The translations under genes were made by a program, and so were the position numbers. The notes beneath the pieces were generated by a model. That model saw only the letters and a list, made by a program, of their open reading frames with translations. It searched no databases and was not told the DNA's origin. This document shows positions 3,060-62,000 of a stretch of 64,000 nt of DNA, one piece after another (position 1 is the first letter of the stretch; each line of letters begins with the position of its first letter). Source of the stretch: Amia ocellicauda. Lineage: Eukaryota > Chordata > Actinopteri > Amiiformes > Amiidae. The stretch is taken from assembly GCF_036373705.1 (NCBI RefSeq), contig NC_089858.1, positions 36,853,137 to 36,917,136 of the forward strand, read 5' to 3'.

Positions 3060-4380
3060 TAATGAAGGGTGCAGAGCAAACAGTACTCCAACAGTACTTA
3101 AAGAAATGAGGGAAATTATTTATAGGCCGCTAACTCGATTATTCCAAATGACACTTGGAACAGGGGATGTGCCAACTGACTGGAAGACAGCAAATGTCAA
3201 ACCAATCCACAAGAAAGGGGACAAAACTGAGCGAGGAAATTACAGGCCAATCAGTCTCGCCTGCATCACCTGTAAAATATTGGAAAAAATTACAGAAAAT
3301 ATTGGAAGCTGTAGGCATTCAGGGTAATGTAATTAGATGGATTATGAACTGGTTGATGTATAGGAAACAGAGGGTGTTGATTAGAGGAGTTGCTTCTAAC
3401 TGGAGTGAGGTTGTTAGTGGAGTTCCACAGGGATCAGTACTAGGGCCTTTGCTTTTTCTAATCTATATTAATGATCTGGACTCTGGGATAGTTAGCAAAC
3501 TTATCAAATTTGCAGAGGATGCTAAAATAGGTGGCTCAGCAGATACAATCTCGACAGCACAGGCTATTCAGAGGGACTTAGATAATATTCAGTTGTGGGC
3601 CGACACCTGGCAAATGAAATTCAATGTGGACAAGTGCAAGGTATTACATGCAGGTAACAAAAATGTCCACTATAATTACATTATGGGAGGTACAGATCTA
3701 GATGAAGTAACGCATGAGAAAGACCTAGGAGTCTATGTGGACTCCTCACTTTCTCCATCCAAACAATGTGGGGAAGCAATAAAAAAGGCAAACAGAATGT
3801 TGGGGTATATTGTCAAAAGTGTAGAATTGAGAACAAGGGCAGTGATGTTCAGACTGTACAATGCACTAGTTAGACCTCATCTGGATACTGTGGACAGTTC
3901 TGGGCTCCACACTTCAAGAAAGATATCGCTGCTCGAGAGGCAGTTCAGAGGAGAGCAACCAGACTTATTCCAGGTCTGAAGGGAATGTCCTACTGAGAGA
4001 CTGAGGAACCTGAACCTTTTCACCCTGGAACAGAGGAGACTACGTGGGGACTTGATCCAAGTCTTCAAAATCATGAAAGGCATCGACTACATCAAACCAG
4101 AGGAGCTTTTCCAGATCAGCAGGGACACACGCACCCGGGGACACAAATGGAAATTGGGCTTCAAGGCATTCAAAACGGAAAACAGGAGACACTTCTTCAC
4201 ACAGAGAGTTGTCACAATCTGGAACAAACTCCCCAGCGATGTGGCTGAAGCTGAAAATTTGGGAACATTTAAAAATATACTGGATAGTATCCTTGGATCA
4301 CTTGGTTATTAATGGACACCAAACGAGCACGATGGGGCGAATGGCCTCCTCTCGATTGTAAACTTTCTTATGTTCTTATG
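3060..4380 (+). mobile_element. CR1-type non-LTR retrotransposon, 5'-truncated and dead
   Basis: The plus strand encodes pieces of a LINE reverse transcriptase. Visible in order are the RT block around 'NYRPISL' (about 3,240), 'GVPQGSVLGPLLFLIYIND' (about 3,420-3,475), the catalytic region (about 3,510), and the C-terminal CR1-type segment with 'LRNLNLFTLEQRRLRGDLI' (about 4,000-4,055) and 'FFTQRVVTIWNKLP'. The frame shifts near 3,300 and again near 3,970, and the usual catalytic FADD reads FAED. No endonuclease domain is present, so the copy is 5'-truncated. It ends after a short 3' UTR in a repeated TTCTTATG motif (4,364-4,380), as CR1/L2-clade elements do. Family assignment to CR1 is by recognition of the C-terminal motifs; the subfamily is not determined. 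Confidence 0.85.
3155..4312 (+). pseudogene. Broken CR1-like reverse transcriptase
   Basis: This is the readable reverse transcriptase remnant of the CR1-type element. One frame runs 3,155-3,979, and the thumb/C-terminal part continues in another frame at 4,052-4,312, ending in a stop just before the element's 3' UTR. Fingers and palm motifs are recognisable, but the second catalytic aspartate motif is FAED instead of FADD, and an upstream frame (2,989-3,327) carries the preceding fingers motif. With a lost catalytic residue, at least two frame breaks and no endonuclease it cannot encode a working enzyme. Confidence 0.8.
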
Positions 4381-11401: not shown

Positions 11402-14400
11402 TATATACACACATATATATACATACACACACACCTTCTATATATTATCATAAATACTTCTTTATATATATAGAGTGAGGGGAAAAAAGTATTTGATCCC
11501 CTGCTGATTTTGTACGTTTGCCCACTGACAAAGAAATGATCAGTCTATAATTTTAATGGTAGGTGTATTTTAACAGTGAGAGACAGAATAACAACAAACA
11601 AATCCAGAAAAACGCATTTCAAAAAAGTTATCAATTGAGTTGCATGTTAATGAGGGAAATAAGTATTTGATCCCCTATCAATCAGCAAGATTTCTGGCTC
11701 CCAGGTGTCTTTTATACAGGTAACGAGCTGAGATTAGGAGCACTCTCTTAAAGGGAGTGCTCCTAATCTCAGCTCGTTACCTGTATAAAAGACACCTGTC
11801 CACAGAAGCAATCAATCAATCAGATTCCAAACTCTCCACCATGGCCAAGACCAAAGAGCTGTCCAAGGATGTCAGGGACAAGATTGTAGACCTACACAAG
11901 GCTGGAATGCGCTACAAGACCATCGCCAAGCAGCTTGGTGAGAAGGTGACAACAGTTGGTGCGATTATTCACAAATAAACCCAAAACCCAAAATAACTGT
12001 CAGTCTCCCTCGGTCTGGGGCTCCATGCAAAATCTCACTTCGTGGAGTTTCAATGATCATGAGAACGGTGAGGAATCAGCCCAGAATTACACGGGAGGAT
12101 CTTGTTAATGATCTCAAGGCAGCTGGGACCATAGTCACCAAAAAAACAATTGGCAACACACTATGCCGTGAAGGACTGAAATCCTGCAGCGCCCGCAAGG
12201 TCCCCCTGCTCAAGAAAGCACATGTACAGACCCGTCTGAAGTTTGCCAACATCTGAATGATTCAGAGGAGAACTGGGTGAAAGTGTTGTGGTCAGATGAG
12301 ACCAAAATCGAGCTCTTTGGCATCAACTCAACTTGCCATGTTTGGAGGAGGAGGAATGACCCCAAGAACGCCATCCCCACCGTCAAACATGGAGGTGGAA
12401 ACATTATGCTTTGGGGGTGTTTTTCTGCTAAGGGGACAGGACAACTGCACCACATCAAAGGGACGATGGATGGGGCCATGTACCGTCAAATCTTGGGTGA
12501 GAACCTCCTTCCCTCAGCCAGGGCATTGAAAATGGGTCGTGGATGGGTATTCCAGCATGACAATGACCCAAAACACACAGCCAAGGCAACAAAGGAGTGG
12601 CTCAAGAAGAAGCACATTAAGGTCCTGGAGTGGCCTAGCCAGTCTACAGACCTTAATCCCATAGAAAATCTGTGGAGGGAGCTGAAGGTTTGAGTTGCCA
12701 AATGTCAGCCTCGAAACCTTAATGACTTGGAGAGGATCTGCAAAGAGGAGTGGGACAAAATCCCTCCTGAGATGTGTGCAAATCTGGTGGCCAACTACAA
12801 GAAACGTCTGACCTCTGTGATTGCCAACAAGGGTTTTGCCACCAAGTACTAAGTCGAAGGGGTCAAATACTTATTTCACTCATTAACATGCAAATCAATT
12901 TATTTTTTTGTTGTTATTCTGTCTCTCACTGTTAAAATACACCTACCATTAAAATTATAGACTGATCATTTCTTTGTCAGTGGGCAAACGTACAAAATCA
13001 GCAGGGGATCAAATACTTTTTTCCCCTCACTGTATATATATATATATATATATATAAACTCATTCAACAGTGTGTGTGTTCGTACTGCAGTTCACAGATA
13101 CTCACAGTCTTGTAAAAGGCTTTGGATTGGTTTCCCAAGTGCTCCGACTTCTGCACTAAATCGTCCAGCTTCTCTCCTCTCTCCAACAATGACTCCATTG
13201 TGTTGTGCTGCCAAGCAAGGGAAGAGACACTGAGGCCCAGCTCAACCCCCACACAATACCAACATTTATCCTGGACTCCTCTCCACCCACAAGCTTATAG
13301 ATAGTAAACCGCACGTCCGTAAGTTGACACTAGAAAAATCAGACGTGTTTGGCACCGGACTCACCAGGATGATTTTGGTTTCGTCGAGCTCGGCCTGGAC
13401 TTTAGTCATGGCATCAGCCTCCCGAGGATTCTGAATGGGGAAATAAAGAAAAACAAAAATCTAAGCCATGCTAAATCATTTCTAGTGGCTTCTTGCTACA
13501 CGGCAGGAAAAATAATTAAACTAAGCCGACTGCAGCCAGAATGAGTACTGAGAATATCAGAGCTGGGATTCAGAGGGGCGTGTGTGACTTCAGGACTGTC
13601 TCGTTCCCCTCACTCTCTCTCTCACCTGGTATTTGGCAAGGTAGCTGTCCAGGGCAGTGTAGTTGATGGTAGCTGGGGAGCCCGAGGGCCAGTCTATACT
13701 GTCCACCTGTTTGGAGAATTCATCTAATACCTAGAAGAAAGATGACAGTCCACACAGAGGGAAATCATGCAGCCTTCAATGCAAAGTTTGGCTAGTTTTT
13801 CCTTCCTTCCTTCTACAGCCCTACTGAGGATCTCAATCATTTTAATAATACAACTATTTATATAGCAAATTTCATACTAAAAGCAGCTCAAAGCACTATA
13901 CAAGAAAATTAAATATTTAAAATACAATGATTGTCATTTCTTCTCAACTTTCTTTCAATAATGTGGTGGAGAACCAAGTACCACAGTAAGGGAGGACAAA
14001 TTAATGCCAGGTCAAGTCCCATGTGATGAGCTGCTTCTTGTGTCATATGAATCAGATAATGAAACCAGCACTCAAAGAAATGCATTAAATTGGTTCCAGC
14101 ACTAAATCTGACTCTTTTTAGTTTTTGTTTGGGGGCGGGGGGGTGGGGGTTACCTTATCCATCAGGGTGAAGCACACTCTGGAGGGATACTCATTGTCAG
14201 CAATCAGCACGGCGCTCAGGGAGTCGTTGCGGACGTACACATGGCACAGATACTCTGGAGAGACAACACAGACACGCTACTCTGCTGTTCCTCCAAATTT
14301 CCGGGCGGACTAACATTCTGCAAGTGTCAGAGCACTTTGAGGGCCTAATTTTGCACCTATGAGAAGGGTGTGTTATGGGCATAATGAGAATGGGCAATAC

Positions 14401-23835: not shown

Positions 23836-24236
23836 TGAATGCCACTGAACAGGTCAGTCAGGCCCCGCGCTCACATGGTATGGAGGGTGACAAGTTCCAA
23901 AATTATGATTATGAACATGATAATGGGAATTAACATTATTAAAAACATGAAAATGCATATTGTCACCTTTTACAAAGTTGCCATGGAAACTGGTCAGAAG
24001 TGAGACATTTCCCCGCAGAGCACTGGTGGACAGACATTAAAACTTAAATAGTTTCCGTATTGTATTTTGTACCTTCTTATTTGGGAAAATGTGCAAAGAT
24101 ACATCTATTCACTCACACAATCCCTATAGATAAAGGGAGATGTTAAATTAAGTCCTACGTATTACTGCATTGTATGTATTTTAGGCTTTATACAATTAAA
24201 ATATTACTAGTTACTAGAAGTCCGCCTTATCTCCAG

Positions 24237-24238
<2 letters not shown>

Positions 24239-24300
<62 letters not shown>
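24239..24300. repeat. (GT)n microsatellite in left arm
   Basis: About 31 GT units. Its mirror-image (CA)n tract lies in the right arm at about 25,662-25,728. Confidence 0.97.
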
Positions 24301-24303
<3 letters not shown>

Positions 24304-24712
24304 CCCCCGTTAAGGTGGGTCCATGACAGTTCATCCCCAAATGGGGGCCAAACAGGCCATAATGCAGTGGATTGCGTGCATATTATATTGGTTCAGAATT
24401 TAACATGCATACCATGTCGGTTTGTGTGAGTATTATATGGGTTTGTGTGAGTATTATATCGGCTGTTCACGTGACTCAGGTGGGCGGGGCAGGATTGGGG
24501 ATGAAGGGAAATCAAGGTGGACGCAGCAGTGCAAGCTTTGTCCTCGAGCAACACATTACTGAATGACTTAACCATGTCATCTGAGCAAGACATTACAGAT
24601 TACTTTTACAGTATTGATCACACTGTGTCCATGGTTGACACAGGGGGCGCTGTTTGTGTCATTCATAATGTCATTCACAACAGCGCTTTTGTGCATGCAA
24701 ACACATTTTGTC

Positions 24713-25115
24713 CCCCGGAATGGACATTTTGTCCCATGAAATGATAATTTTATCCCACAAAATGATAATTTTGTCCCAATAAATGACCATATTGTGCACA
24801 CAATTCACATTTTGTCCCACAAAATTATCATTTTGTCCCATGGAATGATAATTTTGTCCCACAAAAACACCATTTTATCCCACAGAATGATCATTTTGTC
24901 CCACGGAATGGTCATTTTGTCCCACAAAATGACCATATCGTGCACACAATTACATTTTGTGGGATAAAATGATAATTTTGTCCCACGGAATGGACATTTT
25001 GTCCCATTAAATGACCATATTGTGCACACCATTCACATTTTGTCCCACAAAATTATCATTTTGTCCCACGGAATGATAATTTTGTCCCACAGAATGGACA
25101 TTTTGTCCCACGGAA
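24713..25115. repeat. Degenerate tandem repeats of a TTTTGTCCCAC motif (spacer of the inverted repeat)
   Basis: Units of roughly 20-26 bp of the form 'aatgataattttgtcccac' are repeated many times with variants, interrupted three times by 'atgaccatattgtgcacac'. The unit ATTTTGTCCCA recurs in direct orientation, with one reversed stretch near 24,955-24,970 (TTTTGTGGGATAAAATG). Short open frames across it are products of the repeat and not genes. Confidence 0.9.
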
Positions 25116-25657
25116 TTAGGAATTTTGTAGGTGAAAAGTAAAATGTACTTTCCTTCTGTGGGTGAAATGATGAAAGAGGGTTTTCATTTCGTCCAGTGAA
25201 GGCAAAGTACATTTTATATTTTACTTACAGATAATGTCCATTCCGGGGGACAAAATGTGTTTGCATGCACAAAAGCGCTGTTGTGAATGACATTATGTAT
25301 GACACAAACAGCACCCCCTGTGTCAACCATGGACACAGTGTGATCAATACTGTAAAAGTAATCTGTAATGTCTTGCTCAGATGACATGGTTAAGTCATTC
25401 AGTAATGTGTTGCTCGAGGACAAAGCTTGCACTGCTGCGTCCACCTTGATTTCCCTTCATCCCCAATCCTGCCCCGCCCACCTGAGTCACGTGAACAGCC
25501 GATATAATACTCACACAAACCCATATAATACTCACACAAACTGACATGGTATGCATGTTAAATTCTGAACCAATATAATATGCACGCAATCCACTGCATT
25601 ATGGCCTGTTTGGCCCCCATTTGGGGATGAACTGTCATGGACCCACCTTAACGGGGG

Positions 25658-25661
<4 letters not shown>

Positions 25662-25728
<67 letters not shown>
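25662..25728. repeat. (CA)n microsatellite in right arm
   Basis: About 33 CA units, the reverse complement of the (GT)n tract in the left arm. Confidence 0.97.
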
Positions 25729-25730
<2 letters not shown>

Positions 25731-25919
25731 CTGGAGATAAGGCGGACTTCTAGTAACTAGTAATATTTTAATTGTATAAAGCCTAAAATACATACAATGC
25801 AGTAATACGTAGGACTTAATTTAACATCTCCCTTTATCTATAGGGATTGTGTGAGTGAATAGATGCACATTTTCCCAAAAAAGAAGATACAAAATAAAAT
25901 ACCTTAAAACACGTCTGTC

Positions 25920-28900
25920 TGTGACTGGTGTGAGGGGTTGGGCTGGTGTGAGGGGTCAGGCAGGTGTGAGGGGTCGGCCTGGTGTGAGGGGTCAGGCTGG
26001 TGTGAGGGGTCGAGATGTTTTTAGGGGGCTGGTGTGAGGGGTCGGGCTGTTTTTAGGGGTCGGGCTGGTGCGGGGGCTGGTGTGAGGGGTTGGGCTGTTT
26101 TTAGGGGTTGGGCTGGTGCGGGGGCTGGTGTGAGGGGTTGGGCTGTTTATAGGGGTGGGGCTGTTTTTAGGGGTTGGGCTGTTTTTAGGGGTTGGGCTGG
26201 TGCGGGGGCTGGTGTGAGGGGTTGGGCTGTTTATAGGGGTGGGGCTGTTTTTAGGGGTGGGGCTAGTGCGGGGGGTTGGACTGTTTTTAGGGGTTGGGCT
26301 GGTGTGAGGGGTTGGGCTGTTTAAAGGGGTTGGGCTGTTTTTAGGGGTCGGGCTGTTTTTAGGGGTTGGGCTGGTGCGGGGGCTGGTGCGGGGGATTGGG
26401 CTGTTTTTAGGGGTGGGGCTGTTTTTAGGGGTTGGGCTGGTGCGGGGGCTGGTGCGGGGGCTGGTGTGAGGGGTTGGGCTGTTTTTAGGGGTCGGGCTGG
26501 TGTGGGGACTGTTGTGAGGGGTTGGGCTGTTTTTAGGGGTCGGGCTGGTGCGGGGGCTGGTGCGGGGGCTGGTGTGAGGGGTTGGGCTGTTTTTAGGGGT
26601 CGGGCTGGTGTGGGGACTGGTGTGAGGGGTTGGGCTGTTTTTAGGGGTCGGGCTGGTGTGGGGACTGGTGTGAGGGGTTGGGCTGTTTTTAGGGGTCGGG
26701 CTGGTGCGGGGGCTGGTGCGGGGGCTGGTGTGAGGGGTTGGGCTGTTTTTAGGGGTCGGGCTGGTGTGGGGACTGGTGTGAGGGGTTGGGCTGTTTTTAG
26801 GGGTCGGGCTGGTGTGGGGACTGGTGTGAGGGGTTGAGCTCCTTTCAGGGGTCGGGCTGGTGCGGGGGCTTATGTGAGGGGTTGGGCTGCTTTCAGGGGT
26901 CGGGCTGGTGCGGGGGCTGGGTTGAGGGGTCGGGCTGGTGCGGGGGCTGGTATGGGGGCTCGGGCTGGTACGGGGGCTGGTGTGAGGGGTTGGGCTGCTT
27001 TTAGGGGTCGGACTGGTGCGGGGGCTGGTGTGAGGGGTTGGGCTGCTTTTAGGGGTCGGACTGGTGCGGGGGCTGGTGTGAGGGGTTGGGCTGTTTTTAG
27101 GGGTTGTGCTGGTGCAGGGGCTGGGTTGAGGGGTCGGGCTGGTGCGGGGGCTTATGTGAGGGGTTGGGCTGCTTTCAGGGTTCGGGCTGGTGCGGGGGCT
27201 GGGTTGAGGGGTCGGGCTGGTGCTGGGGCTGGTGTGAGGGGTTGGGCTGCTTTTAGGGGTTGGGCTGGTGCGGGGGCTGGTGTGAGAGGTTGGGCTGCTT
27301 TTAGGGGTTGGGCTGGTGCGGGGGCTGGTGCGGGGGCTCGGGCTGGTACGGGGGCTGGTGTGAGGGGTTGGGCTGCTTTGAGGGGTCGGGCTGGTGCGGG
27401 GGCTGGTGTGAGGGGTTGGGCTGCTTTTAGGGGTTGGGCTGGTGCGGGGGCTGGTGCGGGGGCTCGGGCTGGTACGGGGGCTGGTGTGAGGGGTTGGGCT
27501 GCTTTGAGGGGTCGGGCTGGTGCGGGGGCTGGTGTGAGGGGTTGGGCTGCTTTTAGGGGTTGGGCTGGTGCGGGGGCTGGTGCGGGGGCTCGGGCTGGTA
27601 CGGGGGCTGGTGTGAGGGGTTGGGCTGCTTTGAGGGGTCGGGCTGGTGCGGGGGCTGGTGTGAGGGGTTGGGCTACTTTTAGGGGTCGGGCTGGTGCGGG
27701 GGCTGGTGTGAGGGATTGGGCTGCTTTTAGGGGTTGGGCTGGTGTGGGGGCTGGTGTGAGGGGTTGGGCTGCTTTTAGGGGTTGGGCTGGTGCGGGGGCT
27801 GGTGCGGGGGCTCGGGCTGGTACGGGGGCTGGTGTGAGGGGTTGGGCTGCTTTGAGGGGTTGGGCTGGTGCGGGGGCTGGTGTGAGGGGTTGGGCTGCTT
27901 TTAGGGGTTGGGCTGGTGCGGGGGCTGGTGCGGGGGCTCGGGCTGGTACGGGGGCTGGTGTGAGGGGTTGGGCTGCTTTGAGGGGTCGGGCTGGTGCGGG
28001 GGCTGGTGTGAGGGGTTGGGCTACTTTTAGGGGTCGGGCTGGTACGGGGGCTGGTGTGAGGGATTGGGCTGCTTTCAGGGGTCGGGCTGGTGCGGGGGCT
28101 GGGTTGAGGGGTCAGGCTGGTGCGGGGGCTGGTGTGAGGGGTTGGGCTGCTTTTAGGGGTTGGGCTGGTGTGGGGGCTGGTGTGAGGGGTTGGGCTGCTT
28201 TTAGGGGTCAGGCTGGTGCTGGGGCTAGTATGAGGGGTTGGGCTGCTTTTAGGGGTTGGGCTGGTGCGGGGGCTGGTGTGAGGGGTTGGGCTGCTTTTAG
28301 GGGTTGGGCTGGTGCGGGGGCTGGTGTGAGGGGTTGGGCTGCTTTTAGGGGTGGGGCTGGTGTGGGGGCTGGGTTGAGGGGTCGGGCTGGTGCGGGGGCT
28401 GGGTTGAGGGGTCGGGCTGCTTTTAGGGGTTGGGCTGGTTTGGGGGCTGGTGTGAGGGGTTGGACTGGTGCGGGGGCTCGGGCTGGTACGGGGGCTGGTG
28501 AGAGGGGTTGGGCTGCTTTGAGGGGTCGGGCTGGTACGGGGGCTGGTGTGAGGGGTCAGGCTGCTTTTAGGGGTTGGGCTGGTTTGGGGGCTGGTGTGAG
28601 GGGTTGGGCTGCTTTTAGGGGTCGGGCTGGTACAGGGGCTGGTGTGAGGGGTTGGGCTGCTTTTAGGGGTGGGGCTGGTGTGGGGGCTGGGTTGAGGGGT
28701 CGGGCTGGTGCGGGGGCTGGGTTGAGGGGTCAGGCTGCTTTTAGGGGTTGGGCTGGTTTGGGGGCTGGTGTGAGGGGTTGGGCTGCTTTTAGTGGTCGGG
28801 CTGGTACGGGGGCTGGTGTGAGGGGTTGGGCTGCTTTTAGGGGTCGGGCTGGTACAGGGGCTGGTGTGAGGGGTTGGGCTGCTTTTAGGGGTGGGGCTGG

Positions 28901-30250
28901 TGTGGGGGCTGGGTTGAGGGGTCGGGCTGGTGCGGGGGCTGGGTTGAGGGGTCGGGCTGCTTTTAGGGGTTGGGCTGGTTTGGGGGCTGGTGTGAGGGGT
29001 TGGACTGGTGCGGGGGCTCGGGCTGGTACGGGGGCTGGTGAGAGGGGTTGGGCTGCTTTGAGGGGTCGGGCTGGTACGGGGGCTGGTGTGAGGGGTCAGA
29101 CTGGTACGGGGGCTGGTGTGAGGGATTGGGCTGCTTTCAGGGGTCGGGCTGGTGTGGGGGCTGGGTTGTGGCGTCGGGCTGGTGCGGGGGCTTATGTGAG
29201 GGGTTGGGCTGCTTTTAGGGGTCGGGCTGGTGTGGGGGCTGGTGTGAGGGGTTGGGCTGGTGCGGGGGCTTATGTGAGGGGTTGGGCTTCTTTCAGGGGT
29301 TGGGCTGGTGCGGGGGCTCGGGCTGGTGCGGGGGCTTATGTGAGGGGTTGGGCTGCTTTTAGGGGTTGGGCTGGTTTGGGGGCTGGTGTGAGGGGTTGGA
29401 CTGGTGCGGGGGCTCGGGCTGGTACGGGGGCTAGTGTGAGGGGTTGGGCTGCTTTTAGGGGTCGGGCTGGTGTGGGGGCTGGTGTGAGGGGTTGGGCTGG
29501 TGCGGGGGCTCGGGCTGGTACGGGGGCTGGTGTGAGGGGTTGGGCTGGGTTGAGGGGTCGGGCTGGTGCGGGGGCTTATGTGAGGGGTTGGGCTGCTTTT
29601 AGGGGTCGGGATGGTGCTGGGGCTGCTGTGAGGGGTTGGGCTGCTTTTAGGGGTTGGGCTGGTTTGGGGGCTGGTGTGAGGGGTTGGACTGGTGCGGGGG
29701 CTCGGGCTGGTACGGGGGCTAGTGTGAGGGGTTGGGCTGCTTTGAGGAGTCGGGCTGGTGTGGGGGCTGGTGTGAGGGGTTGGAGTGGTGCGGGGGCTCG
29801 GGCTGGTACGGGGGCTGGTGTGAGGGGTCGGGCTGGTGCGGGGGCTGGTGTGAGGGGTTGGGCTGCTTTTAGGGGTCGGGCTGGTGCGGGGGCTGGTGTG
29901 AGGGGTTGGGGTATTTTTAGGGGTCGGGCTGGTGCGGGGGCTGGTGTGAGGGGTTGGGGTATTTTTAGGGGTCGGGCTGGTGCGGGGGCTGGTGCAGGAG
30001 GTCGGGCTGGTGCGGGGGCTGGGGCCGGAGGTTGGGCTTGTGCGGGGGCTGGTGCGGGAGGTCGGGCTGGTGAGGGGGCTGGTGTGAGGGGTCGGGCTGC
30101 TTTTAGGGGTCAGTTTGCTGCGAGGGGTTGGGCTGCTTTTAGGGGTCGGGCTGGTTTTAGGGGTCGGGCTGGTTTTAGGGGTTGGGCCGGTGCTGGGGCT
30201 GCTGTGAGGGGTCAGTTTGCTGCTGCGGGGGCTTCTTTTAGCGGTCAGGC
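25920..30250 (-). repeat. 4.3-kb coding minisatellite (48-bp unit built of 12-bp subunits; 126-bp higher-order unit)
   Basis: The array is built of 12-bp subunits arranged mostly as a 48-bp unit. On the coding (minus) strand the 48-bp unit reads as the 16-residue [16 protein letters not shown]. In places longer blocks recur: the block holding CGGGGGCTCGGGCTGG appears at 27,331, 27,457 and 27,583, a 126-bp (42-codon) period. Nearly all length changes are multiples of three, so the frame stays open for the whole array. The last roughly 70 bp (25,920-25,991) lie beyond the stop codon. The plus strand is strongly G-rich. Confidence 0.95.
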
Positions 30251-33200
30251 TGCTGTGAGGGGTTGGGCTGCTACGGGGTTCGTCAGACGGCTGTGCCGGC
30301 GGGGTCGGCTTTGAATGGTAGAGCGTGAACTCTTTCTCAACAGTGGAGAGAGTCTCTGTGGTGAAAGAGAGGAGAAACACAGGGAGTTCAGAACATGGAC
30401 TGCGGTGAGACGAGTCAGACCCCCAGTCTAATGCTTATTCTGCTCCACATTAGGAGTCTCAACAGTGCAGTCTAATCTGACAGGGTTTGAGGTGGATTTT
30501 TCTAGTGAGTGTCGGGGTGTCACAGTCCTTACTTGTTTTCCTGCCAGTTTGAGAGACCGTTCGCACCGGCTTCGGCGCCTCATGCTTCATGGAGGGTTTC
30601 TGCAGGAGACACAGAGAAACGTGTTAAATGCAGGAAGGGGCCCGTGTGAAAGCGAAATTTGCCTTGCTTTGGTCAGAGATGACAGCAGGAGGAGAGTCTC
30701 CATACCTTCCAGTGCTGCTCCAGCCTCAGCTCCCTTCGTGACTCCGTCTCCATTTTCTGCAGCATCTGGCGTTGGTTTGCCTTCCAGGCCTGGTCAGAGA
30801 ACACAGGGCACAGTGTGTCAACACAGCACATAGCATCATAGCGCCAGACACCAACATGGCATCTGGACTCCCGTCATCAGTCACTTGTGTTCACGTTGTG
30901 ACAATAGGTGTTCAACTTTAAAACATTTCATCATTAGGGAGAAATCTAAAATTTGTTTTCTTTTTTTACTAATCTTACATTAGTTAAGCAGGAAAGTATA
31001 CAATACATCAGTGCATTTCAGTTGTGCTCTGTTGCTGTATGTGGAGCCGAGCAGTAGCTATGTGTGTTTGTGGGGTTGTGGGCGGCGGTGTCCTATTTCT
31101 CTTACCTGCTCAGCGGCTTTCATGGCCTGTTCTGTCCGGCGATTGCCCAGCTGGTTCCTACAACACAGAACACATAGCGGGTCACCACATCTTTCTGTCT
31201 GTCTAGCCTTTTTCAAAGCTGACATACCCAAGCTCAAAAATATCCACATTAACACAACATTACAATGGCCAACATCATTCTAAAATCTCATTCCCACCTA
31301 AGACTACCAATTCATCAGTGTAAGTCTACCTGTCCAAATCTATCTGTCTCTACATGTTGCCACTGATCTTAACCCCCCTGCCTGTCCATCCACCTCTCTG
31401 TCCATCCACTCTGCAGTCACAGTCGCTGCTGTGCCTGCCTCCTACTCACCGAAGCCTGTGAGCCTCGCCCTGCTGCCCGAATGAAATCCAGCCCTGCTCC
31501 AGGAGCCACTCCGTCACGTCCTGGACAGACATGTCCTGCGGGACCTTCTCTTCCTCCTGTAGGATCAGGAACTGTTTCACCAGCTCCTTCTGCAAGACAC
31601 AACCAACACAGCTTGGGTCACATCCCTACAGCACCTGCTGACGGGCCGGGCCGACTCACCCCACCCACAGGCACACGGGACAGACGGATACACTGCTAAT
31701 CCGTCACAAACTGCAACTTTCACAGGAACTGAGCTGTGTGTGAGTGTGTCAGTGTTCTGTTGTATTGAGCTGTGTGAAAGTGTGTTACTGCATAGTGTGT
31801 TGTGTGCAGATCTCAGAGGGTCAGCTGTAAGGTACCTGTTGCTTCATGTAGTTCTTGTCCCAATCCATCTTGACGGACCTCAGGTAGTCACAGTAGCTAT
31901 TATAGTCCTTCAAGGAGCACGCTACCTGGAATTTAAAAGAAACAAAAGATCAGGAGTGATAGCTAACAATACTCTAACAGACACGCTGTAATGTGTACTT
32001 GTGCTGCTCTTACTTTCTTGTCTGCGGTGAGGAGGCCATGTTTGTACATTCTCCGCTGTCTGGTCTTGTTGCTGTAGAACTCCTTCAGGTGAGGATCTTG
32101 CAGAGAGTTGTATTCATTGTCCAGCAGGTGGCAATGGGGGTCCTGCAGATCAAACTGCGACCTTTCCTGATGCCGCTGCAGCAACAAACATAACACAATC
32201 ACACACAACAGCTTACCACAACAGCACAATAATGTGTTCATAGCATTTCTGATCACTGAGCCCTGCAGTGCCAGTCTGCTGCTTACCTTCTGGAACAGCC
32301 TCGTAGTGTGAAAGGTGCCATGGGTTCCTGCTGGCACAAACACCTTCTTCCCCAATGGCTTCTTAACATGAAAGTACCCTTCCTCGGTTTCGGCCACAGA
32401 AAGGGCACTCTGTAAAGTAACACAAATAAAACATGTAAGTACACACACAAAGCAAATTAACACTCAATACACACACAAACAAGAACAAATACATGGGTCA
32501 ATAACGTGATGCATGAAATTTGGTGTCCCAAGCATATTACAAATATTACATGTATTTATTTGTTATTAAAACTGAATATTATGTCTCAATACTCCTATCT
32601 TTATTCACTGATATGAGTATTTTTCATGACTATACAAATTTTTAGGAGTTATTAATCTCCAATCATCCAACATGTCATACCGGACTCTTAATTTAATTAC
32701 ATTTTGACATGAAAAAAACTTTTGTCCCCATATTGGGATTTGTTCCAGTGTCATCCTGGACAACAGACATTCAGGAGCATTTTTACATCAGAATGCATTT
32801 TGCTAGCAATGTGACAGGACATATTATGATTATGAAGGACTCCCAGGCTGTGCAGAAAGTTTAGTAAGTCTCTCCTAAAATGTTGATAATTTGACCTTTT
32901 CGATCACTGGTGCACTAGGGTACAAAATTCTGTGTCATATTGGACAACACTTAAAAAACATTTATAATATTGTTTTAAAAACAAATGTATATTTAATGTG
33001 AAAGATGACATTGAATAGTTTGAGGTCAAAGTAATACATTTATATAAATGGTTAAGTAATTGCCTGATTCATAAGTTAAAACCTGTATTTTGTCATACCA
33101 GAAAACGATTTTGTCAACCGGAAAACGATCACTTTCTGTTGTTCAACAATGTCACTCATTATCTGGAGTGACTTGCTTATACTTTTATTATTTTTAGGAG

Positions 33201-34861
33201 TATTTGTGAGCGTGTAGGCATCACATTTACATTGTCATGTTATTTTAACAACACAATAATATATTTATAACATTATTTCTGTAGTTTTAATGCAATTTTT
33301 GTCTGTGTGGATGTCCTTAAATAACAAACGAGATGGCAGATGTTTATGCCATGAAGCCATTTGCAAGTTTTAAGAGAATATATATTAAAGTTCACAAATA
33401 GCATAATTCTTATATATTTAAAATGTTATAATTTGAAAACATTCAATATACTTTTTAATCTGTTGAAATGTTAATTAATTGAATTGACTTCATGTCATAA
33501 ATGAGTTACAACATTGTTGTTACGGTTTACTTTTTTTAAAATGGCATATGTTTACAGGTTTCCTGTATAACCTTAAAAATAGTTAATGTGCTGAATATAT
33601 TTAATATGTTTAAATCTTAAAATGTTTTACTGCTACTGTTTTATCAAAGCCCGTGCCTTGAGTGGAATTGTATTACATCATATTGACTGCTCACTTCTGA
33701 TTATTTACTGTTAATTAAAATTATATATATACATTTAGTGACTCTATCTCTCGGTTAAATACAGAATTATTTTTTTAAGTACATCTTTGTTACTGAGACT
33801 ATATTTAGATATCATCCCATATGAAATCTCACAGTATGTCATTCCAAGTAACAGTATCAGTCAGGTAGGACAACACAGATTTTTCTTGTAAAAATACTTA
33901 AGTCAGTGTCCTTGAGTTAAGGATACAACAATTTTTCAGACATTTCCCATCATTTTTCACTATTCAGCGTTATGTTTTGGGTGACTAACTTCACAAAATG
34001 CACTGGTGTCGATGGAAAACCCCAAATTTGTGAGATTAATTGTGATTTGTTTGTGATCAAACTATGAATACTTATAACCCACTTTATGCTGACAAAAAAC
34101 TAAAGTCAAATAATCTGCAAATCTATCATTGTTATCCGGTATGACATATTTGATACTAGAAATCATATGATTTATAATAAAAAAGTATAAATTATTATTT
34201 TCACAAATAAAACTTTTTGAAATATATGCATAACATTCTAATGAAGGGTAGAAAGAGCTTTAATTTATATTTTAAACTATATTTTTTTTACCATTTTAAA
34301 ATCCTTATTCGTCACTGACCCACATACACATACACAGCTCACTAGAACAGGGATGAGTTCAGATAACATTCAGGATAACTTGACATAAGTTATCTAAATT
34401 TAAAGTCCAGATGAGTAAATTACCATAGGATATAGCCTGATTTAGTTAAACCAGGTCCAAGGAACGAGGCCCAGCATACTAACATATTATCAACACTGAG
34501 ATGCACATAAATAAACTCACGAACTGACACACGATGTACACACACACACATTAGAAAACTCAAAGTCAACATTTAACACACAAATGAAAAAGCACCTTTT
34601 CAATACAACACACCTTAATGAGCATTAAAAAACATAGATATATGTATACAAATTATACAAATGCATTTGCTTGGAACCAAATATAATTAGCTAATTAAGC
34701 AATCCCTTGACATGGCAGACATTGTGTACTAATACAACCTATGCAAATCGGGGACATCAATTAATTAATTAAGGCAGACATTGACATATCAATAAATCTA
34801 TTAAGGAAAAACTCACAGTTTTTTTCTTCTTCTTGGTTGTAATTGGTTCGTAGACAGACAT
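25992..34861 (-). CDS. FSIP2 N-terminal-like protein with giant Ser/Thr-Pro repeat tail, 9 coding exons
   Basis: I joined exons 34,861-34,817, 32,409-32,287, 32,175-32,014, 31,925-31,836, 31,589-31,450, 31,157-31,106, 30,789-30,706, 30,599-30,533 and 30,355-25,992. All junctions are GT-AG and the frame is continuous, giving 1,708 residues. Residues 1-255 resemble the N-terminus of fibrous sheath-interacting protein 2 (FSIP2), a sperm-tail protein: '[11 protein letters not shown]', '[20 protein letters not shown]', 'PHLKEFY', then '[19 protein letters not shown]' and 'KNYMKQQ'. A helical, charged segment with '[20 protein letters not shown]' follows. After about 30 unique residues (from '[16 protein letters not shown]') the last exon encodes about 1,420 residues of [16 protein letters not shown] repeats, with about one [ST]P every three residues. 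The repeat exon follows a strong pyrimidine-rich acceptor and is in frame. The true FSIP2 C-terminal domain is absent. FSIP2 homology is by recognition of motifs; function is inferred. Confidence 0.8.
32494..34322. mobile_element. Putative non-autonomous DNA transposon with TGGGTCA inverted ends
   Basis: This 1.83-kb AT-rich block fills most of the first intron of the FSIP2-like gene. Its ends are inverted: TGGGTCAATAACG at the left and CGTCACTGACCCA at the right, matching at 11 of 13 positions. A second, subterminal motif TGTCATACCGGA occurs near 32,674 and in reverse complement near 34,137. Related TGTCATACCAG and TGTCATTCC copies lie between. No transposase frame is present and I see no clear target-site duplication. 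I do not recognise the family. Confidence 0.45.
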
Positions 34862-34960
34862 CGATAAACATTAATTACAACTTCTTTCGCTGCTTTCCTC
34901 CGACTGAGTGGTAGCTTGGCCTTACAGTATTCTTAAGTTACGGAGACCATTGTGATATAA

Positions 34961-34970
34961 CCATGGCAAC
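34961..34970 (-). promoter_or_regulatory. RFX X-box half site upstream of the FSIP2-like gene
   Basis: The minus strand reads GTTGCCATGG followed by TTAT. This is the complete 5' half of the X-box consensus (GTNRCC-N-RGYAAC) with a weaker second half. It lies about 100 bp before the start codon, the usual distance for X-boxes in ciliary genes. It supports a cilium or flagellum role but is only a motif match. Confidence 0.5.
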
Positions 34971-35041
34971 AAATCAGAACGCAGAGGGCGTGGTTAACAT
35001 AAAATGTCATACAGTGTCCCTGGCACAGTTCCAACACTCAT

Positions 35042-44893: not shown

Positions 44894-50914
<6,021 letters not shown>

Positions 50915-58198: not shown

Positions 58199-59045
58199 GT
58201 AAGAACGAGTTCGGGAACCGAGTTGCTAAATTGCAAGGTAAGCAACGACCAGAATTGGAAAGGAAGGCGGTCTGTGGGTAATAATAAATCATTTGACCTG
58301 TAGCAATGCAATGTGTCTGTGTCCGGACAGGGGGATTGTAAATCATCCAGGGGTTTAATGTGAAATTTGATCATATATGCCGGAGCACATGGATACACAC
58401 ATTAAATAAACGTATATATGCAGTGTGCGCATGTTGTGCTTTCTTGTTGCAGTGCATCCGTTAAAATTGTTAGCAAACTAAAAGTGCCATTTGTATCAGA
58501 AAGGTAAAAATACTTTGTTGTTAAAGGTAGCCTATGTATCTACGGAGCATCTTTTCAAATGCCCTAGATTGCAACTCACAAGGCGTAATTTGCATAATGA
58601 AACGAGCCGAATTTGCCTTTCTACACACACATCATTATTTGTTTGCATGTTTCATTTGATGTAGCCGAGTGTGTGTTGAGGAAATGGTAAGTGCAGTATC
58701 ATTTACGTTACAGTTTAGTCGTAAATCACTATTAAGTTTAGATAATGTGGAGAACTAACTTTATTTTTATTTTTATAGGAAGAGCATTTTGCACATTGCC
58801 CTGGCAGTCTCACTCCGGAAATAAATATGTGCTTCACAAGTACAGCTCTGCTTGACTGCCCTATTCAAGCACACTGTAGTCTTGCGATATGTATTGTATC
58901 TTGCACTGTATTTTGCTCCAATATGTGACTTGTTCATTGTTATCTTGCATTGTCTTTATATGTTTTAGTTTAATGTACATTTAAAATATATACTTTTGTA
59001 ACTTTGGCAAAGTGTGTCAACTATCTCTCTTTGTCTCTCTCTCTG

Positions 59046-59076
<31 letters not shown>

Positions 59077-59083
59077 AGCTGCC

Positions 59084-62000
59084 ATGTTCTCTGATCTGAC
59101 AGGCCAGAGACAGGGGACGCTTCTGGGTCCTCCTGCCCCTCAGGGCCCAGTGTTTGAGCGAGTGCGGCCCTCCTATGTCAACTGCTCGGAGCGCTTCAAG
59201 CTGGGCGAGCGCACCTTCAGCCGCCAGTACGCCCACATCTACGCCACCCGGCTGGAGGAGATGAGGCCCACACTCACCCAGCGAGCCCAGCAGACATGGG
59301 GTAGGGGCCTGCTCCGCTCCTGAGGGGTTTTTAGAATACAGTAATGCGGTTCATAAATAAGCTGGACTCGGTGGACGGTTTTTGCCGGGCATTGTTGAAA
59401 GGTTCGTTCACAAGGTCTGCTGTGCGATGACGGTCCTGGTATGGACGCCTCGGGCTCGATTTGTGATTGGAGTGAGACCCACAGATGAGATCGGAGGGTC
59501 TGTTCGGTACAGCTAATCAAATTCAAATAAACCAATCGGAACTGGTTCGGTAGCTCAGAATGAAAATAACAACTTTCAAACTATACGTATTAGCTGTAGT
59601 TTTATGCAGCTTCTCTGCTAGCTGGATACTGATGTGCTCATGAGGTACTAAAGAGTATTTACTTCAGTTTTTTATTGATTTTAAATCCAAATGTTCCTCA
59701 GATGTCAAAATGATGAGCCATTTGGGCACCTAGCATCTGGTTCCACGTTCTCCATGGAAGTCAACTTTAGTATCTCAGAAGAAGTGTTACAATGCTGCAA
59801 TGATCCAGAGTGTGAGCGCAGACTCCCGTTGCAGGTGCAAACGTGCAGGTCAAGAAGCTCTTTGAAATCGAGATGGGGGAGCAGTGCTGCATTGTGGGAA
59901 CTATCTTCAAGCACATGGAGCTGCAGCCGTCCATCCTACGGGAGATCAGTGAGGAGGTAGGCGCCAGGTGTTGACAGACTAGTTTAGACAATTCACGTCT
60001 TGTGGAAGGGAGAGATCGTAGTTCTTGCATCGTTTGCTATTGTTAAGATCGGACGGTTGCTTTGTGTTGTCCTATTCCTCACTCTGTCCTCCTCTCCCCC
60101 CCGCAGCACAATCTCCTGCCTCAGCCGCCCCGCGCCAAGTACATCAGCCAATCAGACGAGCTCATCCTGGAGGACGAGCTGCAGAGGATCAAGCTGGAAG
60201 GCAACATAGACACGCAGAAATTCGTCACAGGCAAGGAGGTCTTTTTGTCGCTGTGGCACTTGGTTGGGCTGGGTACAGCCTACGCAGTGATGATCGGAGA
60301 TAGTGCAAGTGACGAAGGGAATGCGAATGCTTTTATTTGAGACTTGCCCACTGTAAAGTGCCTTGATGCAGTTATTCTTGTGATTCCTGAGTGGGTTAAT
60401 CCACAGAGAATCCGTAAGCTTTTGCTGGTTTTGCAGATCTTACTAGCCATGTCATAATTACTTGACGCTAGAAGCGCTGACGTCTCGAACTACCTAGCAG
60501 CGCCAAAGCCGGTCATTTAACAGCTGAGATATGATAATCAAAGGCAAACGATCGTATAAAACTCAGAAGTTTTATTCATGAACATCAAATCCAACATTTA
60601 GGACCACATGTAGGACCACAGAGTAATTCAAATTTTAATAACCAAATTAGTCAAATTGACTGGCACGGCGCTTCTAGTGTTAATGTGAGAGTGTGTTTCT
60701 AGCTGACCTGGGTGGAAAAAAACACATTTGCCACAAAGGAGAGAGAAACAAGAACTCATATAGACTGTAACAGACTTTTAAGCAGGAAAATATCTGATGG
60801 GTCCACTGTTTAAGGCCTAGGCCTAATGGTTGCCCCCCACCCCCCTGGCAATAACATACGCTTATTATGAAAGGCTATTGACCCAGATTATTGGAAAGGT
60901 CTGCCGCAGACTCTGAGCATCCCTCTCCCCCTGTTGTTTCAGGTAGTGTGATCGCTGTGTTTGGAGCAGAGAAGAATGATGGGAAGTTCATGGTGGAGGG
61001 TTACTGTACAGCTGACCTCCCTCCCCAGCCCCCCAGGAAAGCTCTGGACACTGACCGGTGAGCTCCGCTGCTCTCAACCCATTAATTCACTAAGTTGGGA
61101 CAGAATGGAAAATGCTAATAAAAACAAAGAGGAGTGATTTGTAAATATACTTTGAACGTGTAAAGACAAGGTATTTGATGTTTTACCTAATCAACTGCAT
61201 CGTTTTTTGAAGGTAAACGTTTGTTTTGAAATTGTTGCATGCAACACGTTCCAAAAAAGTTGGGACAGGGGCAATTTAGGACTAATAGCGACGTGACAAG
61301 TTGAAATAAGAAGGTGATGTGAAACAGGCGAGGCAATCGTGTAATCATGGTAAATAAGGAGCCTCCAAAAAAGACCTAGTCCTTCAAGAGCAAGAATGGG
61401 TCGAGGCTCGCCAATCCGCCAACAGATGTGTCAGCGAATAATCCAACACTTTGAGAACAACATTCCTTTTTTGGAATTGGGGTTGTACATTTTACCCAAA
61501 ACATAGTAAATCTAGCTCAACTGCCCACCCCACCCCAGGTTTGTTCTGCTGGCCTCAGGGCTGGGGCTGGGGGGCACCAGTGCGGACAGTCTCCTGGGGC
61601 TGCAGCTGCTGGTGGACATGGTGACGGGGCAGCTGGGAGACGAGGGAGAGCAGAGTGGGGCGTCGCTCATCTCCCGGGTGCTGCTGGCGGGAAACCTGCT
61701 GAGCCAGAGGACCCAGGGCAAGGACTCGGTGAACAAGGTGAGCGGCAAGGAGGATGTATGGAGATTATGCAACTGGGAACGCTTGTTTTAATGTGCCTGG
61801 GCTGCGGGATCTCCTGTCCTGTGTTTTCATGGTCACGTTAGTTGTGTGACTGTTCTGCTTACCTTAACTACTTCAGTACCATGATGCACACACGTCTGTC
61901 AAATGAAAACCCTCACACAGTACCATGCTGTATCTGCGTACATCAAAATTCTTATTCTATTCTGTTAGTGCCTTCTCGGTCCAGCGTTTCAGGTTCATTC

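Follow-up and report, generated by a model that had tools for sequence, protein, structure and literature searches.

The gene and its terminal exon

The window, a stretch of 64,000 nucleotides from Amia ocellicauda, carries on its minus strand a gene that adjoins those for hexokinase and DNA polymerase delta subunit 2, and which ends in an exon composed almost entirely of a Ser/Thr-Pro array (Table 1). The AG of the splice acceptor lies at 30357-30356, as originally predicted, and the exon runs from 30355. It joins the preceding exon in phase, in an exon-intron structure that over exons 2-9 is common to the three paralogs that could be aligned, and it is uninterrupted for 1,453 codons (30353-25995) before reaching the TGA. 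All but the first 26 residues belong to the array, so that the expectation of an exon made almost wholly of Ser/Thr-Pro units, with an [ST]P dipeptide about every three residues, holds well: there are 419 such dipeptides at a mean spacing of 3.4 residues. The 1,427 residues of the array comprise 440 P, 335 S, 333 T, 144 K or R, 83 H and only six D or E, with no aromatic residue at all. They are arranged in SPTPxx modules of 18 bases and SPxT modules of 12 bases, nearly all being multiples of 6 bases. When the array protein was searched against the 988-Mb genome of the species, all 21 matches fell at this locus, among the 150 of 1,624 candidates that were scored.

Table 1. Features of the gene and its terminal array, listed in the direction of transcription
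Feature	Position	Strand	Remarks
X-box-like promoter motif	34957..34970	-	GTTGCCATGGTTAT; pattern match of own design
Probable exon 1	34817..34861	-	followed by GTGAGT; read from sequence
Exon 2	32287..32409	-	AG/GT borders common to C3a, C3b and C24
Exon 3	32014..32175	-	borders as in paralogs; best genome matches
Exon 4	31836..31925	-	borders by paralog alignment
Exon 5	31450..31589	-	borders by paralog alignment
Exon 6	31106..31157	-	borders by paralog alignment
Exon 7	30706..30789	-	borders by paralog alignment
Exon 8	30533..30599	-	borders by paralog alignment
Exon 9, part homologous to the 82-base exon of the paralogs	30282..30355	-	ends ..QPSD
Place of the paralogs' exon 9 donor	30274..30281	-	GTGAGT in 3/3 paralogs; here GAACCCCG, no donor
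Ser/Thr-Pro array	25995..30275	-	1,427 codons, 419 [ST]P
Seed motif	30198..30215	-	CTGACCCCTCACAGCAGC (LTPHSS); same sequence in body exon 11 of C3a and C24
4-base frameshift relative to the repeat unit	26024..26036	-	
TGA stop	25992..25994	-	within array DNA
Remainder of array DNA	25925..25991	-	out of phase, noncoding
Possible poly(A) signal	25767..25772	-	ATTAAA; weak six-base match

Searching the genome with exons 3-5 gave 18 matches, of which three are the window gene itself (the copy on contig C9) and the others lie on contigs C3, C24 and C25. Twenty kilobases were examined at each of the seven paralogous places; C3a, C3b and C24 can be aligned over exons 2-9, while the four remaining places, being fragments or degenerate, were excluded from the counts. 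AG/GT borders flank each of these eight exons in the window gene and in the three aligned paralogs, the sole exception being exon 9 of the window gene, which has no donor. Further upstream, the donor region of exon 1 is similar in C3a, C3d and C24 but its coding part is not conserved, and the start codon placed there is a guess from the sequence. The promoter stretch holding GTTGCCATGGTTAT, which we take to be a motif of the X-box/RFX kind, is 75% identical to C3a over 72 columns.

Across exons 2-9, 264 codons in all, there is no stop or frameshift, where about 4-10 stops would be expected under neutral drift, depending on the branch length assumed. Over these exons dN/dS between the window gene and C3a, C3b and C24 is 0.57, 0.53 and 0.47, with bootstrap upper limits of 0.81, 0.74 and 0.67 respectively. 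This implies that the upstream gene has been kept coding for most of its separate history, although these values, being pairwise, do not date any constraint to the time after the array arose. The predicted gene structure, with constrained upstream exons spliced to an in-frame terminal array exon, is thus supported by both alignment and dN/dS. The same observations, together with the AG/GT borders retained everywhere save at the exon 9 donor, argue against the unlikely, though still serious, proposition that this is a decaying copy which has lost its body, the array being a neutral minisatellite open by chance and the tail inert even if translated.

The N-terminal exons are presumably FSIP2-like, as first suggested, but membership of that family is unproven. 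No Pfam family matched the 263-residue upstream peptide above the cut-off, and a PDB search with it returned nothing below an E value of 0.59. The FSIP2 body model PF15783 found no candidate in this genome, a result to be read alongside its failure to give a signal in any of 14 control genomes, and it matched none of three paralog pieces (C3b exons 2-9, C3b exon 11 and one C24 tail exon). Human FSIP2 has 6,907 residues (PMC11276731, PMC9830513). The window gene differs from FSIP2 both in having no FSIP2 body or PF15783 match and in its genomic position, next to the hexokinase and polymerase delta subunit genes.

Origin of the array

In all three body-bearing paralogs exon 9 is 82 bases long, ends in ..LSD and is followed by GTGAGT, and exons 9, 10 and 11 can be joined in frame to read VTVEELDTIAE..SLTPHSS... 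Matches to the body exons in the genome are confined to C3 and C24, with eight matches from one search (50 of 50 candidates scored) and six from another (26 of 26 scored), and none was found when these exons were sought in the window. The proposal that relatives keep a body which the window copy is missing is therefore upheld by the genome searches. One tail-exon match in C3a contains a TAG, and some paralogs may accordingly be incomplete. Homology between the window gene and the paralogs extends only as far as ..PSD, where the window gene has no donor and the array starts.

The strongest result on the origin of the array is the whole-genome count of the 18-mer CTGACCCCTCACAGCAGC. It occurs at six sites in 988 Mb: four in C3a, which has two copies of exon 11, one in C24 and one at the start of the array. 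About 0.03 sites would be expected by chance, and the reversed 18-mer occurs at none. At all six sites it is read as LTPHSS, and the frame of this seed agrees with that of the exons upstream. In the paralogs the motif lies 771-983 bases past exon 9. When the 152 bases at the head of the array were aligned locally to the body regions, the highest-scoring position in each of C3a, C24 and C3b was the exon 11 LTPHSS motif, with the score reached by none of 400 dinucleotide shuffles for C3a or C24 and by six of 400 for C3b, in which the motif has diverged to LTPHNS and the seed match is weak. Under laxer scoring, the corresponding numbers of codon shuffles were 0/300 for C24, 1/300 for C3a and 5/300 for C3b. 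The most diverged modules are found at the 5' end of the array, which is in keeping with their being the oldest units.

Hence the simplest history, given that the donor was lost where the array starts and that the LTPHSS 18-mer is shared with exon 11 of the paralogs, is one of deletion. A loss of 0.8-1.0 kb probably removed the exon 9 donor together with exon 10 and the beginning of exon 11, fusing exon 9 to the LTPHSS motif, which would then have expanded as a minisatellite in 6-base steps and so replaced the body. Unit lengths in steps of 6 bases would have kept the frame at first. Because constraint persists elsewhere in the gene, the array would presumably be translated as the last exon. 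The reading that we favour, at somewhat better than even confidence, is accordingly that of a duplicated spliced gene, one copy of which (C9) lost its body and gained as its tail an array grown from a single motif, a bulk spacer taking the body's place.

The open frame and selection within the array

The openness of the frame cannot be taken as proof of coding, and was rejected as such, because the composition of the array and the behaviour of control arrays make it cheap. Only 102 of the 12,843 possible single substitutions in the array (0.8%) would make a stop, and the codon-aligned antisense frame is itself open for 1,146 codons. Among the other arrays of at least 250 bases in the 204 kb examined, two of three have a frame that is open throughout, and the third has one open over 55% of its length. 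This stop-poor composition, the open antisense frame and the two small control arrays that are open throughout are each what a decaying copy would be expected to show. Likewise, although 36,964 of 37,066 identical 15-mer pairs in the coding array are in one phase, this agreement is weakened as evidence because units of 6n bases hold phase unaided.

No out-of-phase run of repeats is present from 30275 to about 26036, and the frame is kept through the array. A 4-base shift near 26030 then ends it, with repeats continuing out of phase to about 25925. As the TGA falls inside array DNA beyond this shift, the C-terminus is the array itself and not a separate end domain. The original prediction, while correct as to the open frame, had missed both the frameshift that made its end and the probable growth of the array from a body exon. 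That the frame is ended by a frameshift within the array is again consistent with a decaying copy. In the 3' flank (25960-25760), comparison with the paralog loci revealed no homology besides a dispersed element.

The absence of internal frameshifts is weak evidence. With none observed, 1.4 would be expected from 21 changes (P = 0.25) and 3.7 from 55 changes (P = 0.03), the latter total being our own estimate, and P rises to 0.12 when the terminal frameshift is counted. In the calibration two of ten gaps, at alignment edges, were dropped, and six of the eight kept had lengths not divisible by three. Exon 10 and the beginning of exon 11 fell within its 'noncoding' part. Selection for maintenance of the frame is therefore suggestive at best.

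Purifying selection at the level of codons is not seen in the array. Young changes, private to one array copy, comprise 14 nonsynonymous and seven synonymous (F = 8), against a neutral ratio of 75:25, giving an omega of 0.66 (P = 0.25); at other settings the counts were 14:9, 13:6 and 13:6. A first, module-based count was dropped for the purpose of measuring selection, as splitting the modules on the residues SP biases it at those codons. As the young changes are near the neutral ratio, which is also as a decaying copy would have it, the residues of the array are not measurably constrained.

It is improbable that the array lies outside the protein altogether, with transcripts ending early or cryptically spliced and the array left untranslated or read in antisense. 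The long antisense frame and the presence of poly(A) candidates, all of them weak, are compatible with such an arrangement, but no downstream body exon remains to which a transcript could be spliced, and the agreement of the seed frame with the frame of the upstream exons also speaks against it.

Possible function and known parallels

The predicted product would have about 1,708 residues, consisting of the N-terminal part and, less surely, a disordered, basic, proline-rich tail with a net charge, calculated from the sequence without His, of +138. Proline-directed kinases could phosphorylate it at many places. The dense array of their sites that had been proposed is present as regards the minimal [ST]P motif, with 419 instances, but not as regards full CDK sites ([ST]Px[KR]), of which there are only three. 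Successive [ST]P are four residues apart in 243 of 418 pairs, and there are 255 [ST]xxx[ST]P registers, the type of register found in primed GSK-3 sites.

These figures, and the charge of the unphosphorylated tail, are the grounds for envisaging a charge-switchable spacer like the tails of neurofilaments, in which massed phosphorylation turns the basic tail acidic and alters spacing in the sperm tail. We regard this as decidedly unlikely, given the scarcity of CDK sites and the lack of residue constraint within the array. The resemblance to the KSP tails of neurofilaments M and H is of a general kind, both being long, disordered and C-terminal, with a high density of Ser-Pro among basic residues (PMC3337605); it is loose, as there is no KSP triplet in the 1,427 residues. 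No intermediate-filament rod was matched upstream of the array in the Pfam search of the 263-residue peptide. Moreover, in mouse NF-M axon calibre needed the tail and not its KSP phosphorylation (PMC3337605), and a bulk spacer therefore fits better than a charge switch. A switch acting in a sperm-tail sheath is doubtful for a further reason: in a review, Actinopterygii are reported to have no fibrous sheath (PMC11276731), and so a role there should not be assumed.

An alternative use for a basic tail rich in [ST]P would be the binding of chromatin. SPXX/SPKK tails occur on some sperm histones, and the net basic charge and 184 instances of [ST]P[KRH][ST] are in keeping with such a tail. This seems very improbable, however, as [ST]P[KR][KR] is entirely absent and nothing upstream matches a histone or DNA-binding family. 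Tandem [ST]P arrays are also known from the RNA polymerase II CTD and the H1-like repeats of winter flounder sperm, but these have other units, in other proteins, and offer an analogy alone.

Judged from sequence, a spacer selected for its length and composition is the most likely function, with a useless relic as its main rival. Selection, if any, would act on the tail in bulk, through its length, its composition and the openness of its frame, rather than on its residues. The tail would then be likely to work as a long hydrated spacer or brush on the binding partner of the N-terminal part, replacing the body. A more specific version appears a long shot: that a copy of a scaffold-type gene became, in one step, a giant polyelectrolyte open to phosphorylation, exon 9 being fused by deletion to a single [ST]P motif of the body that grew about 240-fold into a tail of GSK-3 registers, on which selection in sperm or cilia acts only through length and bulk charge.

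Duplicated genes in which a coding minisatellite has altered one of the copies have been described before, and exon 8 of the NPIP (morpheus) paralogs, in which one has expanded, is a good parallel (De Grassi and Ciccarelli 2009, PMC2812944). There, too, the genes are duplicated, a coding tandem repeat within a single exon has expanded to different extents among the copies, and the upstream exons are under selection of their own; the NPIP repeat reaches 39 units, or about 3 kb, with its frame mostly kept. Correspondingly, the array described here lies in a coding exon, represented by the 82-base exon 9 in three of three body-bearing paralogs. The window array differs from that account of NPIP in replacing the protein body after loss of a splice donor, in having a seed that can be named from the paralogs, and in its unit of 12-18 bases, encoding nearly pure Ser/Thr-Pro. 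A literature search, conducted mostly without full texts, found no description of the array-tailed gene. What is new is that an array for which both the seed and the lost splice site can be identified has taken the place of a body.

How a repetitive disordered tail arose can seldom be traced, while here a single genome preserves the parental exon, the splice site that was lost and the seed. The steps by which a folded or mixed body gave way to a disordered tail of 1,400 residues can hence be read, and relatives could supply their dates. Should the tail be made, it would provide a natural test of whether selection acts on the bulk properties of such tails while their residues drift.

Surroundings of the window gene

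Directly 3' of the Ser/Thr-Pro array lies a palindromic dispersed element, the arms of which contain TG/CA runs and the core of which consists of ATTTTGTCCCACAAAATG-like repeats; among the fetched loci, kin of this element are present in C3a, C3b and C3d, all paralog loci of the window gene in the same genome. Fragments of reverse transcriptase and DDE transposase are also found in the window. The neighbouring genes include one of hexokinase type, presumably GCK, and one for a DNA polymerase delta subunit, probably POLD2.

Features in and around the window gene
Feature	Position	Strand	Detail
Reverse transcriptase and DDE transposase fragments	3152-3976 and 12172-12690	+	
Palindromic dispersed element	24207-25760		
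Promoter stretch	34957-35010	-	
Hexokinase-type exons	46011-47559	+	3 pieces, of which 2 exceed the cut-off
DNA polymerase delta subunit OB-domain exons	58985-60337	+	2 pieces, of which 1 exceeds the cut-off

Comparison with the paralogs

The window gene has its promoter stretch, within which an X-box-like word is observed, in common with C3a and C3d. Comparing the window gene (30282-32409) with C3a, C3b and the third aligned paralog, C24, gives a K of ~0.22 for introns, exceeded both by the divergence of exons (0.35) and by that of synonymous sites (dS 0.53-0.63).

Repeats in exon 11 of C3a

Body exon 11, which carries LTPHSS, the proposed seed of the array, is present in duplicate in C3a (L009 5329-7867), with 36-residue tandem units surrounding the motif. 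This duplication and these units imply that LTPHSS is repeat-prone in C3a too.
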